Shown here: piece after piece, positions 5,931 through 22,725 of the stretch
Layout: each line of letters starts with the position of its first letter
Position numbering within the stretch: the first letter of the stretch is position 1
Assembly: GCA_018818785.1 (NCBI GenBank)
Contig: JAHIRF010000007.1
Span: forward strand, 23,711-87,710
Direction: 5' to 3'
DNA from: Thermoplasmatota archaeon
Lineage (GTDB): Archaea; Thermoplasmatota; Thermoplasmata; UBA10834
Length of the DNA: 64,000 nt
The notes under the pieces: generated by a model
What the model was told of the DNA's origin: nothing
Seen by the model: only the letters and a program-made list of their open reading frames with translations
Database searches by the model: none
Translations under genes and position numbers: made by a program

Positions 5931-6182
5931 ATGACGGAGAGGATCAAGATCTATGCCCTGAGCACCTGCCCATACTGCAAGAGGACGAAGAGGTTCCTGG
6001 ACGAGCACGGAGTCGAATATGACTTAGTGGATGTGGACCTGGCCGACGACGAGAAGCAGGATGCGCTGCTGCAGGAGATCGATGAACTCACGGGTCGACG
6101 TTCTTTCCCCGTCGTCATCATCGGGTCCGATGTCATCGTTGGGCACGACGAGGAACGGCTCAGGAAGGCTTTGAAGCTATGA
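5931..6182 (+). CDS. Glutaredoxin-like protein
   Basis: This is a small thiol-disulfide protein (83 residues) of the glutaredoxin fold. The active site is CPYC near the end of the first strand (STCPYCKRTKRFLDEHG), followed by the cis-proline region RSFPVVII and the GHDEERL helix start that would bind glutathione or a partner. I chose the ATG at 5931 because the fold starts a few residues later. It overlaps the next gene by four bases (ATGA). The neighbour resembles the catalytic subunit of ferredoxin:thioredoxin reductase, so this protein is the obvious candidate for its electron acceptor. Confidence 0.92.
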   Translation: MTERIKIYALSTCPYCKRTKRFLDEHGVEYDLVDVDLADDEKQDALLQEIDELTGRRSFPVVIIGSDVIVGHDEERLRKALKL

Positions 6183-6592
6183 CCGCGGAGCAGCCTGCGA
6201 GGGTGTATTGTCCAGTATGCCAGGCGAGGTTCATACCAGGGAGCGATTCAGGCGAAGGCGACACGGCCACGTGTCCGATATGTGGCCAGCGACTTGTGCT
6301 CAGGGAGTCAACGGATGGATTGATCGGCGAGAGAGTCGATGCGCACTCTGAGAATGAGATCAGGAGCAGGGCCGAGAACTTCGCCAGATTCAGGGATTAC
6401 GAATTCTCCGACGTGAAAGAGGAGATCATAGAGGGGCTTGTGGGAAAACAGAGGTTGTTCGGGGATTTCTACTGTCCGTGCAGGATGCTCCACACACCAG
6501 AATACCAATGCCCCTGCAAGCCGACAAGGGGAGGGGATGTGGAGCGGGACGGACGGTGCTACTGCGGGTTCTTCTGGAAGAAGAAGCACTAG
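6179..6592 (+). CDS. Ferredoxin:thioredoxin reductase catalytic-subunit-like protein with N-terminal zinc ribbon
   Basis: FTR uses a 4Fe-4S cluster next to a redox disulfide to pass electrons from ferredoxin to thioredoxin-type proteins. The C-terminal half of this 137-residue protein has the family pattern CPC (about 100), CPC (about 112) and CxC (about 128), ending CGFFWKK. The spacings are 9 and 13 residues, against the 16 and 8 of the cyanobacterial enzyme, and the last motif is CYC where the classical enzyme has CHC. The N-terminal 35 residues add a CPVC...CPIC zinc ribbon or rubredoxin-like knuckle. It is translationally coupled to the glutaredoxin gene, and its 3' end overlaps the convergent ferredoxin gene by four bases. 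Confidence 0.85.
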   Translation: MTAEQPARVYCPVCQARFIPGSDSGEGDTATCPICGQRLVLRESTDGLIGERVDAHSENEIRSRAENFARFRDYEFSDVKEEIIEGLVGKQRLFGDFYCPCRMLHTPEYQCPCKPTRGGDVERDGRCYCGFFWKKKH

Positions 6593-6824: not shown

Positions 6825-8753
6825 TTGATGCACAGACGCACACTCCCATCGTGGCGGATGAGGGATGTGTTGTTAGTCATTCTCAGCCAGGGCATCCGAG
6901 TCAAAAGTGAGAAATACATAGGCAGTCGATGGCACAGCACATTGAACGAGGATAGACTAGACAAAGCCCTGGAATTCACAACGTCGATGATGAGCACAAG
7001 GGACCTGGACCAGCTCATCGACAACATAATGGATATAATCACTGGTGATTTCGGATTCGAAGGATGCGACGCGCTCCTGCTCGACAAGGAGAAGAACGAA
7101 TTCGTGATGCGTGCCAGCAAGGGATTCGCCGAGGTCGGCTTCAAACTCGTGGGAAGACTGACGAAGTCCGTGGAATCCGTCATGCATGACCTCGATGATT
7201 GCGAGAGCCTAGGGAGATTCACCTGCATCTACAGAGCCAAGGAAGGCGATGATCCCAGCGGATACTTCAGCCTCCTACATCCGGAAAGGGCGAAGCTACC
7301 CAGAGAGAACCCGGATGATTGGCACGAGCTCGACGTTCTCTATGTCAAGTTCGAAGACGAGAAAGGCCGTATCGTGGGATTCCTCCAACCAGACGGACCC
7401 AAGGATGGAAGGATACCTTCGGGCCAGCTGATCACCAATCTGGAGATATTCGCTGCCTTGGCATCGATTGCGGTCGCCAATGCGGAGATAGTCAGCGAGC
7501 TCAACAGGAATGTGATGATCTACAAGACCATGGCAAAGACCACTGCCGCGATACAGGACCCTGTGGACCTCAAGGAGACGATCAGGAGGATAGCTGACAG
7601 CCTGAACACGCTCGTCCCTTTCGACGAGATCAGTGTATACCTCATCGACTGGGAGAAGAACCTGCTCATGCCGGTATATGCCACCGGCCCGTACGCGAAC
7701 GAGGCGATGGCGGATATCGGACCCATCAGTGGACTGGCCGGAGTGGTCGCCCGGTCAGGCAAGGTCGAGATCGTCAAGGACTCAATGGACGACGAGAGGG
7801 TCGAGGACATCCCTGGCATCGACGAGGAGGAGATACGCCAGACGATGATGTGCATACCGCTCAAGAGCAAGGCAGGTGAGGTCGAGGGCGTATTGGACCT
7901 CTACAGGGATAAGAGCAGGCAGTTCACGGTCGCTGAGTGGGAGATAGCCGAACCTTTCGCGACACATGCTGCAATCGCCCTCGAGAACGCTCGTCTGAGA
8001 GAGGAATTGAAGTCCAACTTCGAATCCGTCCAGAGGGCCTTCGAGGACATGAAGACCCTCGACAAGGCCAAGGACAGCCTGGTCAACACGATATCCCATG
8101 AACTCCGCACGCCTCTGACGACCATCCTCGGCTACCTGGAAATGGCAAGCCATGGGATGTACGGTGAGATCAGTCCCAAGCTCAAGGAGAAGATGAATAC
8201 GATGGTCTCCTCGGTCAACAGGATCAACAGCCTGGTGGGTAAGATGTTGGAGATGTCCAGGCTCCAGGACGGCACTTTGATCCTCGATAAGGAGCCTGTC
8301 AACCTCGCCCTATTGGTGAAGGAGGTGGTCAGGGACCTCGACGAGGAGACCAATACGAAGAAACATACTCTGACTGTGCTCTTCGGCGGGGAACTACCGG
8401 TGGTCAATGCAGACAGGCTGAGGCTACGGGATGTGCTCTTCAACCTGATCAACAACGCCATCAGGTACACCGCTGAAGGCGGCCAGATCACCATAGGCGC
8501 AGACATACTCAGCGGCAAGGTCCACATATGGATCAAGGACACGGGCAAGGGCATTGCCGATAGCGACAAGCAGAAGATATTCGACCGATTCTTCCTCGCG
8601 GACATGGGACTCACCAGGGATGACGGGCGCGTGGGCATAGGGCTCTACGTGAGCAGGGAGATCATCCGGAAGCACGGCGGGGACATGTGGTTCGAGAGCA
8701 GTGAAGCTGTGGGCAGCACGTTCCATTTCACCATCCCGCTCATGCGCAGATGA
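6825..8753 (+). CDS. Sensor histidine kinase with two GAF domains
   Basis: This is a cytoplasmic signal-transduction kinase of about 642 residues. After a short N-terminus come a GAF-type domain (about 45-220), a second GAF domain (about 235-385), a coiled linker, and a HisKA dimerisation domain with the H-box ISHELRTPL, whose phospho-acceptor His is near residue 425. A HATPase_c domain follows, with an N-box (LINNAIRY), G1 box (DTGKGIADSD) and G2 box (GIGLYVS). There are no transmembrane helices or receiver domain, so the stimulus is probably intracellular or redox-related, and the response regulator must be encoded elsewhere. The start is uncertain: TTG 6825, ATG 6828 or a later site. A TATA-like sequence near 6789-6796 favours the early ones. 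Confidence 0.92.
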   Translation: MMHRRTLPSWRMRDVLLVILSQGIRVKSEKYIGSRWHSTLNEDRLDKALEFTTSMMSTRDLDQLIDNIMDIITGDFGFEGCDALLLDKEKNEFVMRASKGFAEVGFKLVGRLTKSVESVMHDLDDCESLGRFTCIYRAKEGDDPSGYFSLLHPERAKLPRENPDDWHELDVLYVKFEDEKGRIVGFLQPDGPKDGRIPSGQLITNLEIFAALASIAVANAEIVSELNRNVMIYKTMAKTTAAIQDPVDLKETIRRIADSLNTLVPFDEISVYLIDWEKNLLMPVYATGPYANEAMADIGPISGLAGVVARSGKVEIVKDSMDDERVEDIPGIDEEEIRQTMMCIPLKSKAGEVEGVLDLYRDKSRQFTVAEWEIAEPFATHAAIALENARLREELKSNFESVQRAFEDMKTLDKAKDSLVNTISHELRTPLTTILGYLEMASHGMYGEISPKLKEKMNTMVSSVNRINSLVGKMLEMSRLQDGTLILDKEPVNLALLVKEVVRDLDEETNTKKHTLTVLFGGELPVVNADRLRLRDVLFNLINNAIRYTAEGGQITIGADILSGKVHIWIKDTGKGIADSDKQKIFDRFFLADMGLTRDDGRVGIGLYVSREIIRKHGGDMWFESSEAVGSTFHFTIPLMRR

Positions 8754-8866: not shown

Positions 8867-10312
8867 TCAGTGCCCGCAGGCCTTCTCGAAGACATCCGCG
8901 GACGGCCACGACGGGTCTTCCATCATGTACTTGTGCATCGCCCTTGCCGCACGCTTCCCGTCGCCCATAGCGAGGATGACGGTCGCGGCGCCTGATGCGA
9001 TGTCTCCGCCGGCGAAGACGCCTTTCTTGGATGTCCTGCCCTCGGGATCGACTGCGATCGTGCCGTGCTTGGTCGTCTTCAGGTCCGGGGTGGTCATCGG
9101 CACGAGCGGGTTGGGGCTCTGTCCGATGGCGACAAGGACAGTCTGGCAATCGAGCCGGAACTCTGAGCCTGGTATCTTCACCGGTCGGCGCCTTCCAGAG
9201 GCATCCGGCTCTCCGAGCTGCATGCGTATGGCCTCTATCTGCTTCAGGTTCCCACAGTCGTCACCTATGAACTTGACGGGTGCCGCCAGCAGTTCGAATC
9301 GCACACCCTCTTCCTTGGCGTGGTGCACCTCTTCCCGCCTCGCGGGTAGTTCGGCATCCGAACGCCTGTAGAGGATGATCGATTCCTTGGCCCCCAGTCT
9401 CAGCGAGGTCCTGGCGCAGTCCATGGCCACGTTCCCGCCACCCAATGTCACGACGGTCTCGCCGATACCCACGGGGGTATCGTATTCAGGGAACTTGAAC
9501 GCCTTCATGAGGTTCGTCCTCGTGAGGAACTCGTTCGCTGACATGATCCCGTTCAGGTTCTCGCCTTCGAGGTTGGTCCAGTTGGGCAGACCAGCACCGG
9601 TTGCGACGAACACGGAATCATATTCCTTGAGCAGGTCGTCGACAGTCTCGAGCTTGCCGATGACATAGTCCGTCTTGATATCGACACCGGACCTGCGTAT
9701 GTAATCGACCTCGGCCTCAACGATCTCCTTGGGCAATCTGAACTCAGGGATACCGTACACGAGCACGCCACCGCAGTACTGCAACGCCTCGAACGCCGAG
9801 ACCTTGTAGCCCAGCTTCGCGAGGTCACCCGCGACGGTGAGCCCAGCCGGTCCAGCACCTACGACTGCGACCTTCTTTCCGTTCGCCGGGGGCATCTCAA
9901 TCTTGCCGTGCTTCTGCTCCCTGCGCTCCCAATCAGCGAGGAACCGCTCGAGCCTGCCGATCCCGACCGGCTCGTTCTTCTTGCCGACCACGCAGTTGCC
10001 TTCGCACTGGACCTCGTACGGGCAGACCCTGCCGCACACGGCGGGCAGGTTCTGTTTCTGCCTGATGATCTTGATGGCCTCAGAGAAGTTGCCTTCCTGG
10101 ACCTGCTTGATGAACGCTGGTATGTCGATCTCGACAGGGCAGCCGTCCACGCACAGCTTCCTGTTGGGGCCCGGCTTGCACTGGAGACATCTCTGGGCCT
10201 CCATGATCGCGGTCTGACCGTCCTGACCCATCGGGACCTCGTCGAAGTTGTGTACACGCGTCTTCGGGTCCTGCTCTGGCATCGGGTACTTCTTCGGGAC
10301 TATCTTCGCCAT
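8867..10312 (-). CDS. NfnB / GltA-type flavoprotein (NADPH-dependent glutamate synthase small-subunit family)
   Basis: This 481-residue protein has the full architecture of the glutamate synthase beta subunit and NfnB. An N-terminal Fe-S module (about 35-105) includes CLQCKPGPNRKLCVDGCP and CGRVCPYEVQCEGNC. A first dinucleotide-binding fold has VAVVGAGPAGLTVAGDLA (about 148-165), a second has VVTLGGGNVAMDCARTS (about 286-302), and the C-terminal FAD signature GVFAGGDIASGAATV follows. Such proteins take NAD(P)H electrons and pass them through FAD and Fe-S clusters. One base separates it from the upstream NfnA-like gene. The pair could serve the glutamate synthase subunits upstream or act as a bifurcating transhydrogenase. 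Confidence 0.93.
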   Translation of the reverse strand: MAKIVPKKYPMPEQDPKTRVHNFDEVPMGQDGQTAIMEAQRCLQCKPGPNRKLCVDGCPVEIDIPAFIKQVQEGNFSEAIKIIRQKQNLPAVCGRVCPYEVQCEGNCVVGKKNEPVGIGRLERFLADWERREQKHGKIEMPPANGKKVAVVGAGPAGLTVAGDLAKLGYKVSAFEALQYCGGVLVYGIPEFRLPKEIVEAEVDYIRRSGVDIKTDYVIGKLETVDDLLKEYDSVFVATGAGLPNWTNLEGENLNGIMSANEFLTRTNLMKAFKFPEYDTPVGIGETVVTLGGGNVAMDCARTSLRLGAKESIILYRRSDAELPARREEVHHAKEEGVRFELLAAPVKFIGDDCGNLKQIEAIRMQLGEPDASGRRRPVKIPGSEFRLDCQTVLVAIGQSPNPLVPMTTPDLKTTKHGTIAVDPEGRTSKKGVFAGGDIASGAATVILAMGDGKRAARAMHKYMMEDPSWPSADVFEKACGH

Positions 10313-10313
10313 T

Positions 10314-11141
10314 CTACTTCCCCTCCTGCAATAGCTTCAGAGAGACCTGCTCCTCCGCATGATACCTCTTGTTCCTGGCGATCAGGTTGTTGAAATCGAC
10401 CTTGTGCCCATCGAACTCGGGACCGTCGACGCAGCCGAACTTCGTCTTGCCATCGATGATGACCCTGCACGAACCACACATGCCGGTGCCGTCGACCATG
10501 ATCGGGTTCAGGCTCACGACCGTGTGTATGTTGTGAGGCCTTGTGATATCGGACATGACCTTCATCATGATGATCGGGCCAACGGCGTAGACCATGTTGA
10601 CCTCACGCTTCTCCTCTATGAGCTTCTTCAGGATGTCGCTCACGAAGCCTTTGTGGCCCTTCGAGCCGTCATCCGTGCACACGTGGAACTCGTCGCTGAC
10701 CGACTTGATCTCATCCTCGTAGATGAGCAATTTCTCGTTCCTCGCACCGATGATGGACACCGTCTTGTTCCCGGCCTCCTTGAGGGCGCGCACGACCGGG
10801 TACATCAGGGCAAGACCTATGCCGCCGCCGATGCAGACCACGGTCCCGACCTTGTGGAGTTCGGTGGGCAATCCCAACGGTCCGACCAGGCTGAACATCT
10901 TGTCGCCCGCCTTCAGCAATCCCAGCTTCTTGGTCGTCCTGCCGATCTCGAGCGCGGCGATCGTGACCGTGCCCTTCTCAACAGAAAAATCCGCCATCGT
11001 GAGAGGTATCCTCTCCCCGCGCTCGTCGACCGTGAGCATCACGAACTGACCGGCCTTGGCCCTCTTGGCGATGTGGGGCGCTAAGATCTCCAACCTCGTG
11101 ACGTCCGGCGTGAGCTTTTCCGCCTTGACTATCTCATACAT
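10314..11141 (-). CDS. NfnA / SudB-like ferredoxin-NADP+ reductase alpha subunit
   Basis: This 275-residue protein belongs to the group containing NfnA, sulfide dehydrogenase SudB and the PyrK-type reductase. It has an FAD-binding barrel (LTMADFS, about 47-53), an NAD-binding lobe with the glycine-rich GTVVCIGGGIGLALMYPV (about 100-117), and a C-terminal 2Fe-2S region with the cysteines of GMCGSCRV and FGCVDGPEFDGH. I set the start at ATG 11141, where homology begins and an AGGAAGAG-like site sits upstream. It lies one base before the NfnB-like gene. In bifurcating Nfn complexes this subunit exchanges electrons with NADH. Its promoter is separate from the upstream gltB-like genes. Confidence 0.92.
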   Translation of the reverse strand: MYEIVKAEKLTPDVTRLEILAPHIAKRAKAGQFVMLTVDERGERIPLTMADFSVEKGTVTIAALEIGRTTKKLGLLKAGDKMFSLVGPLGLPTELHKVGTVVCIGGGIGLALMYPVVRALKEAGNKTVSIIGARNEKLLIYEDEIKSVSDEFHVCTDDGSKGHKGFVSDILKKLIEEKREVNMVYAVGPIIMMKVMSDITRPHNIHTVVSLNPIMVDGTGMCGSCRVIIDGKTKFGCVDGPEFDGHKVDFNNLIARNKRYHAEEQVSLKLLQEGK

Positions 11142-11230
11142 CGTAGCACTCTTCCTGCCCCCGGCCAGCATATCTGGACGGAGGACCATTCAGTAGGTAC
11201 GCGAAGCTAACTGGCGCGTGATTCTCACGT

Positions 11231-11243
11231 TCATATTTAAACA
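11231..11243 (-). promoter_or_regulatory. TATA box for the nfnA-nfnB-like pair
   Basis: The minus strand reads TTTAAATATGAAC in the 240-base gap between the amidotransferase subunit and the NfnA-like gene. It would give a start of transcription near 11210 and a leader of about 70 bases. This suggests the reductase pair can be expressed independently of the upstream synthase genes. Confidence 0.55.
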
Positions 11244-11382
11244 TGCTGACAGTACGATGAATGATGGTGCGTTTTCCGACGCTTTCGCTCCGATTAATGC
11301 ATTCCCCGGACCTTGTGTGAACAGACATCTGATTCGTTGAAAAATGATCGGGACCGGATGGTACCCAATCATCGCTCATGCT

Positions 11383-14019
11383 TCAGGAATCGCCCGTCTC
11401 CTGCACCTGTTTCTTGCCGGCAAGTGTGACCATCGGCACGGGCTCGATCTTCCTGTAGACCTCTTCAGGGTTCCTCCTAGAGCCGTCGACCCTGAGCAAG
11501 AAGTCATCCACGGGTATGTCGAAGAGGCGTTCGTTCTCCTTCAGGTACGGGAGTATGAGATTCCAATCCTCCGGTGTGAGCTTGGCCAATCTACCGCCGT
11601 TCAGCTGGTCCTCGCCCACTAGCTTCCTCGGGTCTCGGACGTAGATCGCCCCGCCTGAGGCGAGGGAGAACAGGTTGCCTCCAGGATATGGTTCCGGGAG
11701 CTCGACCAGCTTGCCGTCACCATCGAACGATATGCCGTTGAGCACGACGAACCCTCCTCCGTAGAGCGGGTTGCCCGCCATGAACGATTCTGCGAGGTAG
11801 TCGAGGCATGTGCCGTTTATGACGACCTTAGGCCTGCCGACTGCGTTGATCAGAGGTCGTCCAGCCGCGTTGCCGAGGACATAAGCCTCCCCACCCTTCG
11901 CGCCGTACATGAAGGTCTGGCCGACATCGCCTTGGACGACCAGTTTGCCGTCGTTCAATATCTGCCCCAGCTGGTCCTGGCCGTTCGCATGGACGCGTAT
12001 GTCCGCGCCGTCGAGACCGGACGCGAGGTAGTCTCCTGGGCTGCCGTACACATCCAACCTGAACCCTTTCGATTTCGGGCCGAGGCCGCATCCGAAGAAC
12101 CGCTGGCCATGGCACCCGAATATTATCACTCTGTTCCAGCCGAGGTCCTTCGCGGCCCTTATCACGAACGATGCGCCGTCCTCGCCCTCCATCGGGAAGT
12201 CCGCGCAATCGAGCACGAGTATGGAGTAGGGCGATTGCGGCGGCCTCATCTTGGAGATGTTCTTCCGGTCCACTAGCGCGTAGAGCGACCTATCATCCGC
12301 CTCTATCTTCGGGAGTGCACGCAGGATGGTCTCGATCGCCTCGTTGGCCTTATCGACTATCCTGCTGCGCCTGAACTTCCCAGTTGGATAACGCCTGTCT
12401 ATCATCAGCGTTAGTATCCTCAGGTACTCGCTCATCGAGGCGTCTCCTGCGGATGCTGATTTGACCATCTGGGCGAAGAGCGAGTTGAGTTCGCTCCCGG
12501 TCATCTCATGAAGCTTCTGTTTGAATAATTTGAACTCGGCGACCGGATCCTTCCTCGCGGCGAACTGCTCTCCGAGGTCGCCTGCCCTGGGAACTCTTGG
12601 AAGACGCTTCGTGAGCTTGAGGTCCTCCGCCTTGTCCCACGAGTTGTTCGGGACTGTGACCATCGTCCCGAACTTGTTGGTGCAGATGAGCCTAAGGGAA
12701 CCGGGGGTCTCCTTCTGCTGATGGAGAGAGAATATGAACGCGCCACCGTCGGTGTAGCTACCGCCTCTCGCGTTCCAGTACTTGTCCGCGTATCTGGGGA
12801 CGGATGGCACCTCCAGGGATATGCTCTCGAGGGCCGAGTCGATCGCCTGCTTCTCCGAGGCGATCAGCCCTATCTGCACATCACCGTCCACAAGCGCGAA
12901 CACCTGTGGCCTGAGCATCGATGTGTCGGTTATGCCCATGAGCTGGAGCCTGTTCTCGTAATACGAGTTGCGGCCGATGATGAAGAGCCAGGGACCATCC
13001 GGGGAACCGTGGATGTGGGTCCGCTGGACCGCTTTGTACACGCGCTTCTTCTCCTCTGGCAGGAGGGAGAAGTCCCTTTCGGTCGTAGGTGCGAGCGCTT
13101 CGATGATATACTCGAGCGGGTAGCTGTAGGTCCTGTTCAGCACGTCGAAGAGCAGCACGGCGACCTCCGTGTCCGTCAGGAAGAGAGGTGCGATGTTCCT
13201 CTGCGCGAGGTATTCGGAGACCGAATGGTAGTTGGCGAAATCGCCGTTGTGCACGAGCGCCTCGTCCAGCCCTATGAACGGATGGGCCCCTCCAGGGTGC
13301 CAGACACGCCCTTTGGTAGGATATCTCTGATGTCCGATCCAGACATGGGCCTTGAACTCGTCGAGCTTGTAGTACCTGATGACGTCCTCTGCGTACCCCA
13401 CTATCTTGAGCACGAGCATGTTCCTTCCGTGGGACATCACGAATGCAGCCATCCCGGACGATGCGTACCATCTGTGGTTCGTCCTGAAACTGTTCTGATA
13501 GACGAACTCGTCCTCCGCTTTTTGACGGTCCATGTCCTCGAGCTTGTTGTCCTTCATGAACTGGTCGAGCACGGGACCCTTCACGCGGCAGAAGTACCTC
13601 CATACGGCTGGAGGCTTGACCTCGAGGGTGCCGAGCACTTTCTTGTCCGTGCTCGTCTCGACCTCATACATCTTGGATACTTCGTAACATGGATCGATGA
13701 ATTCGGATTCCAGCGATCGACGAGCATCCGGTTTCAGGTACGCGACCTGCACCAGGTAGTGGGTCCTGAGCACTTCCTCGGAGACACCGAGCTGCTCTGC
13801 GGACAGTCCGACCGCCGCGATGCCGCCGCCCTTGCCGTTCCCTCTGTTGTGCATCTGCTCGAGGGGTTTGAGAATGTGCTTCCCAGCGAGGGGCACTGAG
13901 CTGGCGAGACCGACCACCCCGCATCCGCCCTCGGCCTCCGTCATACGTGCGCCCTTGGCCGCGGATGATTGCTTCATCCAGGACCGTGACGAGATGATCG
14001 TCTCGACCTGCGGATTCAC
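11383..14019 (-). CDS. gltB: Glutamate synthase amidotransferase-GXGXG subunit
   Basis: This 878-residue protein fuses two parts of glutamate synthase that many archaea encode as separate genes. The N-terminal class II glutamine amidotransferase has its nucleophilic Cys in GGCGVVGL (Cys33 of the predicted product, so a propeptide of 32 residues would have to be removed), with HNRGNGKGG downstream and VHNGDFANYHS for glutamine binding. The C-terminal part (about 600-800) has the GXGXG beta-helix repeats (GDVGQTFMYGAKGGEAYVLG). The GTG start at 14019 overlaps the upstream stop codon (GTGA) and follows a strong GGAGGTG. It should release ammonia from glutamine for the FMN subunit encoded upstream. 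The synthase FMN and Fe-S centres are in the neighbouring protein. Confidence 0.92.
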   Translation of the reverse strand: MNPQVETIISSRSWMKQSSAAKGARMTEAEGGCGVVGLASSVPLAGKHILKPLEQMHNRGNGKGGGIAAVGLSAEQLGVSEEVLRTHYLVQVAYLKPDARRSLESEFIDPCYEVSKMYEVETSTDKKVLGTLEVKPPAVWRYFCRVKGPVLDQFMKDNKLEDMDRQKAEDEFVYQNSFRTNHRWYASSGMAAFVMSHGRNMLVLKIVGYAEDVIRYYKLDEFKAHVWIGHQRYPTKGRVWHPGGAHPFIGLDEALVHNGDFANYHSVSEYLAQRNIAPLFLTDTEVAVLLFDVLNRTYSYPLEYIIEALAPTTERDFSLLPEEKKRVYKAVQRTHIHGSPDGPWLFIIGRNSYYENRLQLMGITDTSMLRPQVFALVDGDVQIGLIASEKQAIDSALESISLEVPSVPRYADKYWNARGGSYTDGGAFIFSLHQQKETPGSLRLICTNKFGTMVTVPNNSWDKAEDLKLTKRLPRVPRAGDLGEQFAARKDPVAEFKLFKQKLHEMTGSELNSLFAQMVKSASAGDASMSEYLRILTLMIDRRYPTGKFRRSRIVDKANEAIETILRALPKIEADDRSLYALVDRKNISKMRPPQSPYSILVLDCADFPMEGEDGASFVIRAAKDLGWNRVIIFGCHGQRFFGCGLGPKSKGFRLDVYGSPGDYLASGLDGADIRVHANGQDQLGQILNDGKLVVQGDVGQTFMYGAKGGEAYVLGNAAGRPLINAVGRPKVVINGTCLDYLAESFMAGNPLYGGGFVVLNGISFDGDGKLVELPEPYPGGNLFSLASGGAIYVRDPRKLVGEDQLNGGRLAKLTPEDWNLILPYLKENERLFDIPVDDFLLRVDGSRRNPEEVYRKIEPVPMVTLAGKKQVQETGDS

Positions 14020-15527
14020 TTGCCCACCTCCTTCGCCTGCTTGTCCGCATGTCTCAGCAGGTCCGTGCGTCCCCTCAGCTCAGATATGCCCTTCATACCT
14101 AACCTGTGGAGCAGCTCGCACCATTGCAGCTTCCATGAACTGTACATGTTGACGATCCTTTGCGCGCCCCAGTCCGAGTGCGTCATCTGCTGGAGTTCGG
14201 GATCGGTCGTCGCTATGCCTCTGGGGCAGCCCCTCCCGCTCTCGCAGTTGCCGCATCTCACGCATCCGAGTGCGACAAGGTCCGCCGTCCCGATGACCAC
14301 GCAGTCCGCGCCTAGCGCGATGGATTTTGCGGCGTCCATGGCGGTCCTGAGACCCCCGCTCGCTACGAGCGTCACCTCGTCCCTGATGCCCTCGTTCATC
14401 AGGAACCTGTGGACCTTGGGTATCGCGTATTCGATGGGCATCGCGATGTTCTTCTTCGCTATCTCAGGAGCAGCGCCCGTGCCGCCGTATCCTCCGTCCA
14501 GATGTACTATGTGAGCTCCTGCGTAATAGCTGCCTACGCTCACCATCTCGACATCGTTCGGCGTGGACACCTTCACCGATATGAGTGCCTTGGGGTTTAT
14601 CGCGAGCGCCCAGTCGAGGTGCTTCTTGTGGTCCTCGACGGAGTACACGCTGTGGAATGGGAACGGGGAGAACAGGCTCGTGTAAGGTACCGCCTCCCTC
14701 ATGCGCGCGACCTCAGGAGTGTTCTTGTCATGCAGCAGGTGCCCGCCCAGGCCCGGCTTCGCGCCTTGGGCGTACTTGAACTCCAGTATGCGGGAGCGCT
14801 GGATAGTGGCTTCGCGTACACCGAACAGGCCGGTCGCGATCTGAGTCACGATGTGGTCCTTGAACGGTATCAGCGCGTCCGGATAGCCGCCTTCGCCCGT
14901 CGATACGAATGTGCCTAGCATCTCCGCCGCCTTTGCACGGGCCAGCATCGTGTGCACGCTGATGGATCCGAACGACATGCCGCCGCCATAGAACGGTACG
15001 GGTATCTCGATCTGCTCGCCCTTTCCGCGCCTGTTAAGCCGCACGGAGGTGTCGAAATCAGCCGGATCGAACCTGCCCTGAGATTCGGGCAGTCTGAAAT
15101 ATAGCTTGTCGAAGCCGCCACCCGAGCGGCCGATATTCGCAGGGTCGTCGAGGGCGATCGGCCTTCCGCTTTCGGCCTGCCTCCATGTGGAGAGTATCAT
15201 CTCCGCGGGCCAGCGTGGATCACCCATGCTCTGATAATTGTCGCTCGGGCCGACGGACAGAGAGCCCGTTGGACAGTTGGCGACACAGAAGAAGTAGTTC
15301 ACATCGCAGGACGGACCCATGCATTTCCGGTCATCCGGCGGGAGTATCTTCGTATGGCCTTCGACACGTTTGTGGACACCATATGGACATAACGATTCGC
15401 ACATGCCGCATGAGATGCACTTATCGGACCGCTTGACGCTGAACCTGTTCATGAACTGAAGCCTCTCGGCGGGAGAGAGTGAGACCTCGGGGAAGGAGTC
15501 CATGTAATGACCGGATCGCTCAGCCAT
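14016..15527 (-). CDS. gltB: Glutamate synthase FMN/Fe-S subunit with N-terminal ferredoxin domain
   Basis: This is the catalytic core of an archaeal-type glutamate synthase (503 residues). The ferredoxin-like N-terminus has CISCGMCESLCPYG and later cysteines (KCMGPSCDVNYFFCVANCP). The TIM barrel contains MSFGSIS, STGEGGYPDA, AQGAKPGLGGH, YSVED and GGYGGTGAAPEIA, then the phosphate-binding ASGGLRTAMDAAK and the Fe-S loop CVRCGNCESGRGCP. It should convert 2-oxoglutarate plus ammonia to glutamate with reduced FMN. I set the start at ATG 15527 behind GGTGAG. It overlaps the upstream paralogue by 8 bases and the amidotransferase gene by 4, so the three are translated in close linkage. Confidence 0.93.
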   Translation of the reverse strand: MAERSGHYMDSFPEVSLSPAERLQFMNRFSVKRSDKCISCGMCESLCPYGVHKRVEGHTKILPPDDRKCMGPSCDVNYFFCVANCPTGSLSVGPSDNYQSMGDPRWPAEMILSTWRQAESGRPIALDDPANIGRSGGGFDKLYFRLPESQGRFDPADFDTSVRLNRRGKGEQIEIPVPFYGGGMSFGSISVHTMLARAKAAEMLGTFVSTGEGGYPDALIPFKDHIVTQIATGLFGVREATIQRSRILEFKYAQGAKPGLGGHLLHDKNTPEVARMREAVPYTSLFSPFPFHSVYSVEDHKKHLDWALAINPKALISVKVSTPNDVEMVSVGSYYAGAHIVHLDGGYGGTGAAPEIAKKNIAMPIEYAIPKVHRFLMNEGIRDEVTLVASGGLRTAMDAAKSIALGADCVVIGTADLVALGCVRCGNCESGRGCPRGIATTDPELQQMTHSDWGAQRIVNMYSSWKLQWCELLHRLGMKGISELRGRTDLLRHADKQAKEVGK

Positions 15528-16911
15528 GTTTCTCACCATCCGATAGTATCGCGTCCATGTCCCGTTCGATATCCTCGAAGAATATCGCACGGCCGATCTC
15601 GCCCCTCAGCCTACGGACCTCCCTGATGCCCATCGCCCCGAGCAGTTCGAGCATCTGGTCCCTCCATGCGCCAACCAGATTGGTCATGCGCCCCTCGACC
15701 CAGTCACGGTCCGAGCAGTCGATCGATGCGGGGCAGGTCGAGCCCGTGCAGTCTACACAGTTCCGGCAGCTGAGGGCCACCATGAGCGATTTGTCCAATG
15801 AGACCAAGTCTGCCCCACATATGATGCTCTTGGGCACGTGCTCGGCCGCAGCGATCCCGCCGCTCGTTATGATCGTGATCCTGTCCCTCGCGCCCCTGGA
15901 TACGAGCGCCCTGTGGATGGACAGCATCGAATCCTTGGCGTGCCGGGTCTCTCCCCTTCCCGACTCCCTGCCATCGTCGTCATAGTCGATGTGTATGACG
16001 GGCACATCGGCATCGAGCATCTCCAGCACCTTGTCCTCTATCCCCTTCGATGCCTGGATCCTCAATGCTATGACCACATCAGGGTAAGATTTCGATAGGT
16101 TCTTGAACGCCATCTTCCAGGAAGACCCTACACTGAGCTCTACCATGTGGACCCTGTCATCCAGCTTTAGAGTCTTGATGTCCGACCCTTCGGATATCAC
16201 AGGCACGATCCTGCGACCGGCGACGTCCAGTAGCTCTTGCGTGATGGAGGATTCGGACACGAGCACTATCGAATCCAGCAGCCTGCTCGCCTGCGCGCAT
16301 CCCAGGAGGATCGCGTTGTTGTGGTAGGTCAGCCTGGATGTGTCGAGCAGCATCGGGATCGAGAGCTCTATGCTCGGAGGCATTACCGTCTTCAGTTCGG
16401 ATGATCCCCCGAACTCCAGCCGTGATGGTTTCCCGCCGATGTCGGCGCAGGTGGAGATGGATTCGCGACCGTGTATGCCATCCCTGGTCGGACGGACTAT
16501 CTCGGACATGTCGGTCCACATGCCATCGTAATCGGGTCCTGCGAACATCCCACGGAAGCCCGCTCCGAGGACCGGTATCTTCCCGGTCTCGGCCTCGCCC
16601 CAGATTGTGGATATCCTGAGCGGGGTCCATATGCCCCGACCCAGCGCCTTGTAATCGGACCCAATCGACATGGAGAGAGCTCTCTGAGGACAGTCGGATA
16701 TGCATCTGAAGCAGTTCTTGCACAGGTGGCTCAGAGGGTCCGACATCTTCCTGAAGTCTGCCTCGCTCCGCTTGTGAACGCCGAATATGCACGCCTTCTC
16801 GCACTTGCCGCAGTTGACGCAGTTGTCCGCACGGGTTATGACGAACTTCGGGACGGGTGACGCACGCCCAGGTATGATCCTGATAGGTATGTGGTACCGC
16901 TCAAATGTCAT
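15520..16911 (-). CDS. Divergent ferredoxin-fused glutamate synthase paralogue, active-site motifs lost
   Basis: This 463-residue protein has the same plan as the downstream synthase subunit: an N-terminal pair of ferredoxin motifs (CVNCGKCEKACIFG and CKNCFRCISDCP), a barrel-like domain, and a C-terminal Fe-S loop CRNCVDCTGSTCP. The catalytic signatures are gone. Nothing matches TGEGG, AQGAKPG or GGTGA, while the phosphate-binding SGGIAAAEHVPKS survives. It may therefore keep a flavin or Fe-S clusters for electron transfer without making glutamate, or serve as a structural partner. Start ATG 16911 is chosen because GGAGGTG precedes it; a GTG three codons earlier lies within that site. It overlaps both neighbours. 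Confidence 0.82.
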   Translation of the reverse strand: MTFERYHIPIRIIPGRASPVPKFVITRADNCVNCGKCEKACIFGVHKRSEADFRKMSDPLSHLCKNCFRCISDCPQRALSMSIGSDYKALGRGIWTPLRISTIWGEAETGKIPVLGAGFRGMFAGPDYDGMWTDMSEIVRPTRDGIHGRESISTCADIGGKPSRLEFGGSSELKTVMPPSIELSIPMLLDTSRLTYHNNAILLGCAQASRLLDSIVLVSESSITQELLDVAGRRIVPVISEGSDIKTLKLDDRVHMVELSVGSSWKMAFKNLSKSYPDVVIALRIQASKGIEDKVLEMLDADVPVIHIDYDDDGRESGRGETRHAKDSMLSIHRALVSRGARDRITIITSGGIAAAEHVPKSIICGADLVSLDKSLMVALSCRNCVDCTGSTCPASIDCSDRDWVEGRMTNLVGAWRDQMLELLGAMGIREVRRLRGEIGRAIFFEDIERDMDAILSDGEKHG

Positions 16912-18895
16912 GGGGTGCACCTCCGTGGTTGTGCTTGGGCGCCCCTATGACTAGGCCACGCTCGACCAGCTCGTCGTACTGCGGGGACGATTCGACGAAC
17001 CTGATGAACCGTTCGATCTCCTCCGCATCCTTGCCGTGCACCCGTTCAAGCTGAGATTCGAGTTCGTCGTAGAACGGGATGAGCTCGAGCTTCGATTGGC
17101 ACACCTGCTCGCACGCCTTGCAGCGCATGCACAAGAAGGACCTGTGGGCGTGCTCCTTGGAGAGCGTGACGCCGTTGGCCATCGCCTTGTATGTGAGCAT
17201 CTTGCCCCTCGCGGTCACGCGCTCGTCTCCTAATATCATGTAAGCTGGACAGACTCCCACGCACGCACCGCACATGGCGCACTCGTCCGCGATCCTGATG
17301 GATTTGCTTGTCCGCTTCGGCTCCAGATATCTCTTCGAGAAACGCGAGGCGCGGCTGATGAGTCTCATCGTGATCGGGGAGAGCATCAGCATCGCCCGGA
17401 GCAACGACCCCATCAATGAAGGGTGCATGATCAAACCGCTCAGCCTACCCATGCGCCCTGACAGGTGGAAGTACTTGCCCTGGTTCATTATCCCTCTCGG
17501 GTCCAAGGAGGATTTGAGCTTCCTCAGCTCGTCCTTCCTGCCACGGTCCTCGGCGCCGGAGAACGCGTGGTTCCATATGCCGAGGGAATACGGTTTCGCG
17601 CCCAGATCGATCATCCTCTTGTTCAACAGGAACGACTTGAACGAATCGAGCGTGTATCGGATAGTATTGCCCTGGTCGGTCATGAAGAATCCGAGCACCA
17701 TCGCCTGACCATCCGGGAGATAATGGACCTCGAACAACGGTTCCAGCTCGAGGGACGACGAGAGTCTCTCGAACTCGAGCATCGCCGCGGGAAGTATCTT
17801 CCTGGACAGGATGACCTCGAGCCCCATCATGCCTGGACCGAACTTCCTGATCTTCATGGGGAAGAACCGTTCGTTCCAGAGGTATCGGGCGAGGTATTCT
17901 GGTTCTCCAGTGAGTCCAGCGCTCTTGAGCAGATCGTCGAACGCGGTCTCCGACTCTTCGCCTTCGATGTAGACTATCAGCGCTTCCCCGGGTTTCACCC
18001 TGGGTTTGTCGAGCAGCCGATTGGTCAACTCCACTCGGACGGAGCTCTCGAATATGATGTGGACGGGTGAGACCTCGGAGGATGCCAGCTCCTCGGCGAA
18101 CTTCAGCGCCGACGCCCTGTCGTCGAACACCAAGAGATGAGGATGCTGGTGAGTGGATATCTCCATCACCTTGAGCGTCACGATCGTCACCACGCCCAGC
18201 TGGCCCTCGCTACCGAACACTTGCATGAACCCAGGATCAGAGGGAGTGAAACGGACGAACTCGCCACGGGGCGCTGCCAACTCCAAAGAGACGACGTTCC
18301 CGCTCAAGTGCCCTCTCGAGAAGCTGTTGATACCGACACCACCTGTGGCGACCCATCCGCCGACGGTGGAGAACTTGCTCGATGGCGAAGTGGTGAGGCT
18401 GAGCCCATGTGCCTCGAGCGCATGATCTATCTCGAACCATCTCGCGCCTGCCTGGACAGTGACCGTTTTCGCATCCCCGTCGATCTTCACGATCTTGTCC
18501 ATGCGCGACAGGTCGAGTACGAGCCCGCCGTTCACAGGCACGGAACCGCCGAACGGGGAGGAACCCGAGCCACGCGGTATGACATTGAGGCCGGTCGAGG
18601 ACGCGAATCTGAGCACTTCGAGCACCACCTCGGGTGTCTCGGCCTGCACGACCGCTTCGGGGACCGACGAGAACATGAGCTCCCTGAGGAACCTTGGTAT
18701 CTCGGATTGGTCGCGGGCGTATAGCATGAGTTCGCCAGGGGACGACGCTATCCGTATGGACCCGACGGTCAACCTCTGCAGCCCTTGATATAATGTATTG
18801 TTAGAGACCTCGTCCTTGGCCGAAAAACTGGTCGGATGAGAGGGAGGGGTATCGGCATCAATAGCCCGGTCTACACCAGCACCAACCACGTGCAT
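16901..18895 (-). CDS. FAD-linked oxidase fused to Fe-S domain (GlcD-GlcF-like dehydrogenase)
   Basis: This 664-residue flavoprotein is the first gene of the cluster. The FAD-binding PCMH/FAD_binding_4 domain (about 70-255) includes VIPRGSGSSPFGG, DLSRMDKIV and STVGGWVATGGVGINS. The central FAD-oxidase C-terminal domain (about 290-490) resembles D-lactate and glycolate dehydrogenases. The C-terminal 130 residues carry two cluster motifs, CAMCGACVGVCPAY and CMRCKACEQVCQ. It should oxidise a 2-hydroxyacid or related compound and pass electrons to Fe-S partners; the substrate is not known. Its end overlaps the next gene by 11 bases. A minus-strand TATA-like element near 18993-19003 fits as the operon promoter. 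Confidence 0.88.
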   Translation of the reverse strand: MHVVGAGVDRAIDADTPPSHPTSFSAKDEVSNNTLYQGLQRLTVGSIRIASSPGELMLYARDQSEIPRFLRELMFSSVPEAVVQAETPEVVLEVLRFASSTGLNVIPRGSGSSPFGGSVPVNGGLVLDLSRMDKIVKIDGDAKTVTVQAGARWFEIDHALEAHGLSLTTSPSSKFSTVGGWVATGGVGINSFSRGHLSGNVVSLELAAPRGEFVRFTPSDPGFMQVFGSEGQLGVVTIVTLKVMEISTHQHPHLLVFDDRASALKFAEELASSEVSPVHIIFESSVRVELTNRLLDKPRVKPGEALIVYIEGEESETAFDDLLKSAGLTGEPEYLARYLWNERFFPMKIRKFGPGMMGLEVILSRKILPAAMLEFERLSSSLELEPLFEVHYLPDGQAMVLGFFMTDQGNTIRYTLDSFKSFLLNKRMIDLGAKPYSLGIWNHAFSGAEDRGRKDELRKLKSSLDPRGIMNQGKYFHLSGRMGRLSGLIMHPSLMGSLLRAMLMLSPITMRLISRASRFSKRYLEPKRTSKSIRIADECAMCGACVGVCPAYMILGDERVTARGKMLTYKAMANGVTLSKEHAHRSFLCMRCKACEQVCQSKLELIPFYDELESQLERVHGKDAEEIERFIRFVESSPQYDELVERGLVIGAPKHNHGGAPHDI

Positions 18896-19305
18896 CCCCC
18901 CTCAGGAACAACAGTTCCTTTCAGTCCCTTCGACGTTCATTGGGCAAGCGTCCTGAGAAGCCCGATCAGAGGCGTTTTGTGTCGTCCCTGGATGTATATT
19001 TTTGGCCCTCAATGGCACGCTGCCCCTTAAACGGAACCGCCGTACGCATAGTGTGTATTTATCCCTTTCCAATCTGCTCATCGCCAGTTACACGAATTCT
19101 AATGGTGGTTGAGCCTCGATATCGGCATAATGACGACGGTACCGTACCGGCGAAGGTTATTAATAGGGATGACTGGCAATGCTATCCCAGCACGAATTGT
19201 GTGCCGATCGACACGAGAAAAGCCGAACAGCCCAATGTTTTGAGCCGTTAGTTTGTTTTTCACGTAGCTGAAACGGATGCAATTCTGCACACAGGAAGAA
19301 TAGAC
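18896..19305. other. Intergenic region between divergent glt cluster and SSB gene
   Basis: These 410 bases hold no credible gene. I see a minus-strand TATA-like element (AAAAATATACAT, about 18992-19003) for the glt cluster and a plus-strand candidate (GGTTATTAATAG, about 19155-19166) for the SSB gene. The latter would leave a leader of about 115 bases. A short inverted repeat GGTAC-C-GTACC lies at about 19139-19149. An AGGAAG Shine-Dalgarno precedes the SSB start. Confidence 0.5.
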
Positions 19306-21291: not shown

Positions 21292-22725
21292 ATGGCCGGT
21301 GGCCAGATAAACATTCTGTCGGAGGAACAGATCGGGCTAGTGCACGAGAATACTCTGCACCTGCTGACCAAGCCGGGCGTGCGGGTCGCGAGTGAGATCG
21401 TTCTGAAGCTGCTTGCGGACGGAGGAGCTGATGTCGACCTAGGTGCGAGGATCGCGCGCATACCTGAGGAACTGGTGGAAGAGACCATCTCGAAGGTGCC
21501 GAAGAGCATCACTCTCGGTGCGAGGGACCCTAAGAGAGAGATGGTCGCGCCGAGGAAAGGCCCACCGTACATGGCGACCAACGGTACCGCCGTCTATATG
21601 ACGGACCTGGAGACCGGCGCGAAGAGACCGACCATGGGGAACGACCTCAAGGATTTCATGACGCTCTGCGACGCGATCGATTCGCTCGATTATGTCTGGC
21701 CGATCGTAACAGCCCATGACGGCCCTGAACGATTCCATGGATTGAACGAGCTAGCCATCGCGATGCACAGCACGACGAAGCACATCCAGGGAGAGGCGAT
21801 GTCGGCCGAAGAGGCGAAGGACATGATCAGAGCTGCATCGCTGGTCACTGGTGGAGAGGATCAGCTGGCGAAGAAGCCGATATTCTCCGTCATCCAGTGT
21901 CCGATCTGTCCGCTCGAGTTCGAGAAGGGTTCCGTCGAGGCAGTGATGGAATTCGCTAAGGCAGGGATACCAGTCGTATCGATGTCGATGGCGTTGTGCG
22001 GATTGACCGCACCGGTCGCCTTGGCGGCAGCGATATCGATCGTTAACGCGGAGAACCTTGCAAGCTTCACGATCTCACAGCTCGCCAGGAAGGGCGCGCC
22101 TGTGATATACAGCTCTGAATCGAGCACCATGAACATGAAGACGGGAGAGATACGATACGGCGCGAGAGAGGAAGTGCTCATCGCCGCAGCGGTCGCGCAG
22201 ATGGCAAAGCATTACGGGGTGCCCACGATGGTGGGCAGCTTCGGCATGGGACTTCATGGAGACACACCAGGCATAAATGTGGACCCTTCTGAGCTGGCAT
22301 TCACAACCATGACCAACCTATCGCTCACCGATTTCTCATCAGGCATAGGAGGGCTCGATCAGGCCAAGGGGGCGGCGCTTGAGCAGATAATCATAGACAC
22401 GGACATCTGGGAATCCGTCCGTGAGATCAGGAACGATGTGGAGTTCGATGACAAACATTTCGCGAACGAACTGATATCCTCCATCGGTCCAGGCGGCAAC
22501 TTCCTCAACTCACCCCACACGATCAAGAACATGAGGAAAGAGTTGTTCCTGCCGAATGCAGAGAAATCGAGCATCTTCGAATCTTACAGGTTGAACAAGG
22601 ATCAGAAGGACATCTTATCGAAGGCTAGAGAGAGGGTCGAGGAGATACTAGCGATCCATAAGCCCGAACCAATCGAACCAGATATATCGAAACGAGTGAA
22701 GGAGATAGTGGACAGGCGACGATAA
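21292..22725 (+). CDS. MttB-family methyltransferase without an amber/pyrrolysine codon
   Basis: This is a member of the trimethylamine methyltransferase (MttB) superfamily, corrinoid-dependent enzymes that move a methyl group from tertiary or quaternary amines to a cobalamin protein. The full 477-residue frame is open, with no in-frame TAG. It therefore belongs with the non-pyrrolysine members, some of which act on glycine betaine, proline betaine or carnitine. Family-like segments include the start (LSEEQIGLVHENTLHLLTKPG), the YMTDLETGAKRPTM region and GSFGMGLHGDTPG. A GGAG lies before the ATG. No corrinoid protein or reactivation gene is adjacent. The divergent MFS gene may supply substrate. 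Confidence 0.88.
   Translation: MAGGQINILSEEQIGLVHENTLHLLTKPGVRVASEIVLKLLADGGADVDLGARIARIPEELVEETISKVPKSITLGARDPKREMVAPRKGPPYMATNGTAVYMTDLETGAKRPTMGNDLKDFMTLCDAIDSLDYVWPIVTAHDGPERFHGLNELAIAMHSTTKHIQGEAMSAEEAKDMIRAASLVTGGEDQLAKKPIFSVIQCPICPLEFEKGSVEAVMEFAKAGIPVVSMSMALCGLTAPVALAAAISIVNAENLASFTISQLARKGAPVIYSSESSTMNMKTGEIRYGAREEVLIAAAVAQMAKHYGVPTMVGSFGMGLHGDTPGINVDPSELAFTTMTNLSLTDFSSGIGGLDQAKGAALEQIIIDTDIWESVREIRNDVEFDDKHFANELISSIGPGGNFLNSPHTIKNMRKELFLPNAEKSSIFESYRLNKDQKDILSKARERVEEILAIHKPEPIEPDISKRVKEIVDRRR

Follow-up and report, generated by a model that had tools for sequence, protein, structure and literature searches.

Four overlapping genes of a Thermoplasmatota archaeon, here called A, B, C and D, probably encode a glutamate synthase in which B, a degenerate copy of the catalytic core, links that core, as an adaptor, to exchangeable electron-input modules. 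We put the probability of this reading, which is drawn from sequence comparisons, at about 70%. The design recurs in many anaerobic archaea and bacteria, sometimes as one giant protein, and we found no earlier description of the A-B-C-D arrangement in the open-licence literature. The computational evidence for it consists of gene content, conservation, natural fusions, the loss of a segment from B, the motifs of C and D, and the mutual exclusion of A and a second module, MvhD/FlpD.

Ammonia is assimilated mainly through glutamate synthase, which is taught as having two kinds of input, a NAD(P)H subunit or ferredoxin; an F420 type has been proposed as well. If our reading is correct there is another conserved synthase design, where exchangeable input modules dock on an inactive duplicate of the catalytic subunit. 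This would account for many genes of uncultured anaerobes that have no assigned role, of the 'glutamate synthase-like', 'FAD-linked oxidase' and MetF/MvhD types.

The locus and its catalytic core

The window, i.e. the whole stretch of DNA that was analysed, is 64,000 nucleotides long. An ORF check of the window confirmed the cluster of six minus-strand genes, A to F, that a preliminary description had reported, with 6/6 ORFs at the same coordinates. That description also had the first four genes overlapping, and the sequence bears this out, with overlaps of 4 to 11 bases: A (16901..18895) and B (15520..16911) share 11 nt (ATGACATTTGA), B and C (14016..15527) share 8 nt (ATGGCTGA, the start of C being at 15527), and C and D (11383..14019) share the 4 nt GTGA. 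E (10314..11141) follows after a gap of ~240 bp, and then F (8867..10312). This gap and a TATA-like box of archaeal type upstream of E (TTTAAATA, minus strand, 11234..11241, read from 11241 to 11234) fit the earlier suggestion that E and F lie behind their own promoter. A second TATA-like box, upstream of A (ATAAATAC, minus strand, 19055..19062), may be the promoter of A-B-C-D; both boxes are putative, read from the sequence. The more likely start sites are the ATG at 16911 for B, 15527 for C and 11141 for E; the B ORF stays open up to a GTG at 16920. We rejected chance as an explanation of the gene order, since A-B-C-D is found in every contig of family f1 that is long enough to show it.

C is a ferredoxin-GltB2 protein, with a two-cluster ferredoxin domain and an FMN synthase core whose catalytic region is intact (Glu_synthase, 300 bits, 4.3e-89). 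The lysine of its AQGAKPGLGG motif (K278 in the 524-aa ORF) and its Fe-S cysteines are invariant, and the protein aligns to the GltS structures 1ea0 and 2vdc. D (GATase_6 and GXGXG matches) is a class II glutaminase with a short propeptide ahead of Cys33; the motifs E-x-EGGC33G, QRYPTKG, NGDFANY and TDTE are invariant, and the GXGXG domain covers residues 650-800. The parts of a glutamate synthase (GOGAT) are therefore all present in the pair: the class II glutaminase with its N-terminal catalytic Cys and binding motifs and the GXGXG domain in D, the FMN core with catalytic Lys and Fe-S cysteines in C.

The same domain set as in a C-D type synthase complex also makes up N-methylglutamate synthase, MgsABC. 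This, together with a gene for an MTTB-family methyltransferase at 21292-22725, could suggest that the complex makes some other amidotransfer product, e.g. in a reaction like that of MgsABC. However, the catalytic residues of the D glutaminase are intact, glnA and amtB are neighbours, and the best solved matches are glutamate synthases, which makes such a product highly improbable.

The glutaminase, the FMN core with Fe-S cysteines and the GXGXG domain are common to this locus, to the bacterial NADPH-dependent GltBD and to the ferredoxin-dependent synthases of plants and cyanobacteria (1ea0, 2vdc, 6s6s, 1llw), whose catalytic motifs C and D retain. The differences are that these parts are here split into C and D, that there is an extra degenerate core with a ferredoxin domain (B), and that an FAD/Fe-S protein (A) is found in place of GltD; the genome of this archaeon has no separate GltD. 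F420-dependent synthases, FGltS(I) and FGltS(II), have been proposed for methanogens and ANME (PMC3448663, PMC9012536). In the parts of these two papers used here, an archaeal synthase subunit is likewise paired, on the evidence of gene neighbourhood, with an input flavoprotein of another kind. The input there is an F420H2 dehydrogenase of the FrhB/FdhB type, whereas this family has no match among A to F, nor among the recurrent neighbours, and the same parts describe no pseudo-synthase adaptor.

A degenerate core that stays with the synthase

B was analysed with hhalign and AF2. It is a degenerate GltB2 paralogue with an N-terminal 2x[4Fe-4S] ferredoxin domain (8 cysteines), and its C-terminal part matches Glu_synthase weakly (52 bits). 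B and C are homologous over 427 columns (hhalign, E 4e-73), but a 44-residue gap in the alignment spans the AQGAKPGLGG-to-SVED segment of C, including the catalytic Lys. The second phosphate-binding G-T, which is IGT in C, has become L-D in B, so that B lacks both of these marks of an active GltB2. The synthase fold is nevertheless kept in the predicted structure (AF2 pLDDT 86.7), which matches residues 782-1183 of the GltS alpha subunit with a VIA Z of 25.1. B had been called an inactive-looking synthase paralogue, and the loss of the catalytic-lysine segment from a preserved fold agrees with this. It is not a pseudogene decaying in one genome, an explanation that we rejected as invariant motifs (e.g. 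MSEIVRPTRDGIHGRE, invariant across homologues) are retained across phyla.

The A-B-C-D order is found in Thermoplasmatota, ANME-1/Methanocellales, Chloroflexota, Aminicenantes and Desulfobacterota, and is kept in families f1, f2 and f20. In our sample of genome contigs C lies beside B in 65/65 loci with room for it, D is present beside them in 47/50, and glnA and amtB are recurrent neighbours of the B-C-D loci. Natural fusions occur as well. A-B-C-D is a single chain of 2,531-2,540 aa in loci L155, L156 and L158 and A-B-C is fused in L157 (1,924 aa), as seen with Pfam; B-C is fused in L136, L159-L162, L190, L191 and L193, and in L131 an A-type region and B apparently lie within one 1,230-aa ORF. 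Because single A-B-C-D chains of ~2,530 residues exist in some genomes of a Desulfobacterota sample, it is well supported at the sequence level that A, B, C and D would form one complex. The preliminary description had placed A and B with the synthase and had proposed a search of relatives for the gene order. This view gains support from the adjacency of the genes in distant phyla and from the A-B-C-D, A-B-C and B-C fusions: in relatives, the dehydrogenase and the degenerate paralogue do stay beside the synthase.

Two other synthase operons can be compared by description. Geobacter sulfurreducens GSU1235-GSU1239, a GOGAT operon (PMC2725144), and Desulfovibrio vulgaris DVU1823-DVU1821 (PMC4641369) are both predicted to be under sigma54/nitrogen control. 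The former encodes a protein related to glutamate synthase along with a distinct Fe-S protein (PMC2725144); neither is described as A-B-C-D or with FlpD/MetVF (PMC2725144, PMC4641369).

Protein A and the Nfn pair

A, the proposed electron-input module, was characterized from Pfam matches, homologues and an AF2 model. It is an FAD-binding flavoprotein with a D-lactate-dehydrogenase fold and a C-terminal two-[4Fe-4S] domain (FAD_binding_4 1.5e-36, Fer4_8 7.8e-9), and all eight of its Fe-S cysteines are present in 34/34 homologues. The predicted structure (pLDDT 83.9) resembles D-lactate dehydrogenase (VIA Z 31.5, rmsd 2.6, 431 aligned) and human D-2-hydroxyglutarate dehydrogenase (6lpn, Z 29.3), and has the FAD-binding fold of the FAD-dependent D-2-hydroxyacid dehydrogenases (GlcD/LctD). 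Among solved structures, the one closest to A in sequence is LctD, from the confurcating lactate dehydrogenase Ldh-EtfAB (7qh2, PMC9232219), where the pocket holds the metal ligands His377, His384 and Glu422 and the catalytic base His423 (PMC9232219). The two proteins share the fold, the FAD domain and the position of Arg328 (R343 in A); E360 aligns with Asp346, and H391, the equivalent of His377, is H in 23/34 homologues. However, Ala398 occupies the place of His384 (Ala in 26/34 homologues, His in none) and Pro-Tyr 435-436 that of Glu422-His423 in 34/34. A retains one metal ligand out of three and lacks the base, and it further differs from LctD in having two [4Fe-4S] clusters and no EtfAB, as domain searches found no EtfA or EtfB genes among the six. 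With these residues missing, the earlier suggestion that A oxidises a hydroxyacid is not supported, and we do not take A for an ordinary glycolate/lactate dehydrogenase.

A more specific possibility is that A oxidises D-2-hydroxyglutarate, in which case 2-hydroxyglutarate and glutamine would give two glutamates with no external reductant. The match to 6lpn is in keeping with this and the conserved Arg343 could hold the carboxylate, but the loss of the metal site and base, and the replacement of A in other genomes by FlpD, which lacks such chemistry, make it extremely unlikely.

E is an NfnA-type FAD/[2Fe-2S]/NAD(H) subunit (PRK06222 above cut-off; 1.2e-96 to the small subunit of P. furiosus NfnI, 5jca_S) and F an NfnB-type 2x[4Fe-4S]/FAD/NADP(H) subunit (TIGR01316, of gltA/NfnB type, above cut-off; 7e-166 to T. 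maritima NfnB, 4ylf_B). F is the sole Fer4_20 protein in the genome, with one match. Both subunits have their cofactor domains, and match those of the electron-bifurcating NfnAB/NfnI transhydrogenase (4ylf, 5jca) over their full length, with no distinguishing feature seen; judged by sequence, the pair is a genuine Nfn. What is particular to the family of this archaeon is the setting next to a synthase: E and F adjoin D throughout the family, and the adjacency is confined to it. Nfn genes are present but unlinked to the cluster in the related families f20 and f2, and none were found in f46, a lineage that keeps B-C-D. Nfn had been counted as part of the complex, but with such limited conservation we rejected it as a core component and regard E and F as a lineage-specific neighbour.

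The preliminary model had A oxidising a 2-hydroxyacid and combined it with ferredoxin and Nfn into a supercomplex of six proteins that would make glutamate by bifurcation or confurcation. The fold of A with LctD as its nearest solved match, the pocket residues that still correspond, and the adjacency of Nfn across a whole family are consistent with it, but given the replaced LctD residues, the lack of EtfAB and the unlinked or missing Nfn genes of other families we think it very unlikely. What stands of the model is the assignment of A and B to the synthase; the hydroxyacid donor, Nfn membership and bifurcation or confurcation are not supported. It is also distinctly unlikely that A-B-C-D (or FlpD-MetVF-B-C-D) is itself a flavin-based bifurcating glutamate synthase, in which the energy gained in reducing 2-oxoglutarate to glutamate would drive some donor electrons uphill. 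If true, this would link the assimilation of nitrogen with ferredoxin or C1 metabolism.

Proposed exchange of input modules

Upstream of B we found A in 67 loci, MvhD/FlpD (often with MetV-MetF) in 64 and both in 0, while 11 loci had neither. The ferredoxin region of B has at least 7 cysteines in all 131 module loci, at least 7 of which are the same contig taken twice, and at most 5 in the 11 no-module loci. In one no-module lineage B keeps exactly four cysteines (one cluster) and the ferredoxin domain of C is lost. The barrel of B persists without a ferredoxin domain in L136 and L193, so B may have a regulatory or a purely structural role. On a tree of C, no more than 4 changes are needed to place the module labels, well-supported branches force only about one per group, and the loci with no module fall into a single clade. 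As the loci are related, few independent events lie behind these correlations. FlpD, MetV and MetF are not accidental neighbours, a possibility that we rejected because they occur in most sampled Desulfobacterota loci and exclude A.

One could argue that C-D is an ordinary ferredoxin-dependent archaeal synthase, with B left over as a structural or regulatory remnant and A acting on its own as an oxidoreductase that just shares the operon. After all, C carries its own two-cluster ferredoxin domain, and one lineage has B-C-D without A or FlpD, with the barrel of B kept and its ferredoxin domain reduced or gone. We consider this unlikely, however, given that several genomes encode A and B-C-D as a fusion, that A is conserved beside B from archaea to Chloroflexota, and that the cluster cysteines of B are kept whenever A or FlpD is present.

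With B as an adaptor, the synthase may work as follows. D would free ammonia from glutamine, and C, on its FMN, would convert 2-oxoglutarate and ammonia to glutamate. B, a copy of C that has lost catalysis but not the synthase fold, would be placed beside C; electrons would enter the ferredoxin domain of B from an input module dedicated to this role and move on to the Fe-S/FMN chain of C. The module in this archaeon would be A, with its altered substrate pocket, and in many Desulfobacterota MvhD/FlpD, usually with MetV and MetF, would serve the same port on B. E-F would be a separate enzyme beside the cluster, probably balancing NADPH and ferredoxin. We infer the physical complex in this archaeon, the direction of electron flow and the identity of the donor.

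Should this be correct, the reductant of glutamate synthase in ANME-1, Methanomassiliicoccales and sulfate reducers becomes a directly testable question, and some MetV, MetF and FlpD genes of sulfate reducers may serve nitrogen assimilation, not the Wood-Ljungdahl pathway. The modules that replace A in Desulfobacterota, FlpD/MvhD, MetV and MetF, are those of the acetogen HdrABC-MetVF-MvhD clusters (PMC5736913, PMC9430772). In contrast to these clusters, they are here found ahead of a glutamate synthase, often near glnA/amtB and usually without HdrA.

Gene layout and spread

The preliminary description placed six minus-strand genes together in the window, and sequence inspection and family searches bear out their positions and families: A (an FAD/Fe-S flavoprotein), B (a degenerate glutamate-synthase core with a ferredoxin domain), C (an intact ferredoxin-GltB2 core), D (a class II glutaminase with GXGXG), E (NfnA type) and F (NfnB type). 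Their likely start codons lie at 18895 (A), 16911 (B), 15527 (C), 14019 (D, GTG), 11141 (E) and 10312 (F). The overlaps are 11 nt (A/B), 8 nt (B/C) and 4 nt (C/D), and the gap of about 240 bp between D and E contains a TATA-like TTTAAATA. Catalytic motifs are intact in the D glutaminase and the C synthase. The genome (1.97 Mb, 94.5% complete, with the window on contig C3) has one intact synthase core (C), one degenerate core (B) and a single Fer4_20 protein (F). Glutamate dehydrogenase (ELFV_dehydrog, 3.6e-85) is also encoded in the window, apart from the cluster at 32729-33430 on the plus strand (C3:56439-57140), giving the organism a second route to glutamate.

Among 60 relatives searched, B-like proteins occur in 17 of 19 genomes of the source organism's own family, in both genomes of family f2 and in a single f20 genome, and every sufficiently long locus has the order A-B-C-D. 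In the source family E-F follow D on all contigs extending past it, with a 2.4-kb gap in one (L029). In families f20 and f2 they do not follow D and an F homologue lies elsewhere in the genome; searches of two genomes from f46, another class of the phylum, and of one from f27 found no homologue of F. We therefore treat A-B-C-D as the unit and the Nfn pair as a local neighbour. Of the six-gene order, the A-B-C-D part stands and the E-F part holds only within the source family; membership of the Nfn pair in the complex is not supported. One relative (G007) has an NfnA gene (L040:14281-15153) split by one in-frame stop into ORFs of 172 and 118 aa, either a sequencing error or a decaying gene.

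When genomes of 84,980 named species were scanned with the B alignment, at least 587 stretches matched, and 557 of the 587 listed encode relatives. The best 80, which were retained, come from Thermoplasmatota, ANME-1 (Methanophagales), Methanocellales, Chloroflexota, Aminicenantes, Acidobacteria, Brocadiaceae and many Desulfobacterota. C adjoins B in 65/65 loci with room and D does so in 47/50; genes for glutamine synthetase and for AmtB, an ammonium transporter, recur nearby, by cluster analysis and sequence labels. Even samples from four phyla gave 24/292, 50/148, 9/151 and 12/148 genomes with a match, counts that include a few matches to C alone. The predicted complex is much more widespread than the preliminary description could show.

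The degenerate core and natural fusions

In profile comparison the alignment of B and C spans 427 columns (E 4e-73). A 44-residue gap in B corresponds exactly to the AQGAKPGLGGHLL...SVED segment of C, which bears the catalytic lysine. B keeps the SGG phosphate loop, and the IGT of C becomes L-D/E. In its confident AlphaFold2 model (pLDDT 86.7, pTM 0.86), residues 91-452 overlay the synthase domain in the alpha subunit from A. brasilense, with Z 25.1 and rmsd 3.3 A over 311 aligned positions. Eight ferredoxin cysteines are present in 43/43 aligned B proteins, across which the motif WTDMSEIVRPTRDGIHGRE is nearly unbroken. Among solved structures this ferredoxin domain best matches the one at the C-terminus of HdrA, the docking partner of MvhD in methanogens.

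The genes are also fused in nature. B and C are joined in L136, L159-L162, L190, L191 and L193, and one 1,230-aa ORF (L131) apparently joins an A-type region to B. L157 has A-B-C in one chain of 1,924 residues. Single A-B-C-D chains of 2,531-2,540 residues lie beside glnA in three loci (L155:1969-9567, L156:315-7907, L158:2094-9713). The four regions of the L155 chain match window proteins A to D at 6e-92, 1e-42, 3e-67 and 4e-65; the chain carries the Pfam domains FAD_binding_4, Fer4_8, Glu_synthase, GATase_6 and GXGXG, and retains the CGVAA glutaminase cysteine and SQGAKQG in the core. These chains are divergent, their B having no MSEIVRPTRDGIHGRE motif, and their glutaminase cysteine lies deep inside (PPPSDCG). 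Because a class II glutaminase requires its catalytic cysteine at the N-terminus, cleavage between C and D, before this cysteine, would be implied. Conserved order and natural fusions thus strongly support the earlier suggestion that A and B join the synthase, and A-B-C-D likely form one complex.

Proposed alternative input modules

Upstream of B lies either A or MvhD/FlpD, often with MetV and MetF (Pfam FlpD, DUF5981, MTHFR). A occurs in 67 of the collected loci, FlpD/MetV/MetF in 64 and both in none, slightly inflated counts since at least seven contigs were entered twice. The B ferredoxin region has at least seven cysteines in 131/131 loci with either module, and five or fewer in 11 loci that have ample upstream sequence and neither module. 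In the f46 lineage the cysteines left in B are exactly Cys44, 67, 70 and 73, which together ligate one of the two clusters, and C no longer has a ferredoxin domain; in L136 and L193 it is B whose ferredoxin domain is completely gone. A tree of 113 C barrels accounts for the three module labels with 4 changes, compared with 44.9 after shuffling. Its well-supported (starred) branches require just one change for each group, and all no-module loci fall into a single clade, so the mutual exclusion, clear as a pattern, rests on few independent events.

Lost catalysis, retained fold and clusters, and this module pattern suggest that B would be an adaptor linking the input module to C. A presumably acts as a dehydrogenase, and electrons would flow into C. 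Electron bifurcation, which had also been raised, seems improbable. Two reports propose F420-dependent glutamate synthases with FrhB-type input for methanogens and ANME (PMC3448663; PMC9012536). Geobacter sulfurreducens has a GOGAT operon that encodes an Fe-S protein and a protein related to glutamate synthase, and a predicted RpoN promoter lies ahead of it (PMC2725144); in Desulfovibrio vulgaris, DVU1823-DVU1821 have been assigned to a nitrogen regulon by prediction (PMC4641369). We found no description of the A/FlpD-B-C-D arrangement in the open-licence literature searched, and we regard it as a new form of glutamate synthase.

Loci L137-L147, mostly f46, have B-C-D with no input module and ferredoxin clusters down to one; these lineages are possibly aerobic and marine. 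In six Desulfobacterota loci (L125, L104, L094, L075, L113, L110) FlpD, MetV and MetF lie between ammonium-assimilation genes and glutamate synthase, and such MetVF copies may serve something other than the Wood-Ljungdahl pathway.

The flavoprotein and flanking genes

The AlphaFold2 model of A (pLDDT 83.9) overlays D-lactate dehydrogenase with Z 31.5 and rmsd 2.6 A across 431 aligned positions. The substrate site of LctD holds a metal on His377, His384 and Glu422, with His423 as base (PMC9232219). When LctD was aligned with A, only the His377 equivalent was retained among these residues (His in 23/34 A homologues); the His384 position is His in 0/34, and Glu422-His423 is Pro-Tyr in 34/34. Arg328 corresponds to R343 in A, kept in 34/34, and Asp346 becomes Glu in 33/34. 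On these residues A retains a flavin, and perhaps also a pocket that can bind a carboxylate, but lacks the known hydroxyacid chemistry. The hydroxyacid oxidation first proposed for A is not supported, as His384, Glu422 and His423 are all replaced.

Just beyond F are plus-strand genes for a ferredoxin-thioredoxin-reductase-beta-like protein (FeThRed_B, 6179-6592) and a GAF histidine kinase (6825-8753). Both have counterparts at matching places in L056, L059 and L063, and the kinase alone in L060 and L062. An MTTB-family methyltransferase gene lies at 21292-22725 on the plus strand; its frame has no in-frame stop, so it is probably of the non-pyrrolysine type. MTTB-like genes are found near the cluster in several relatives too.
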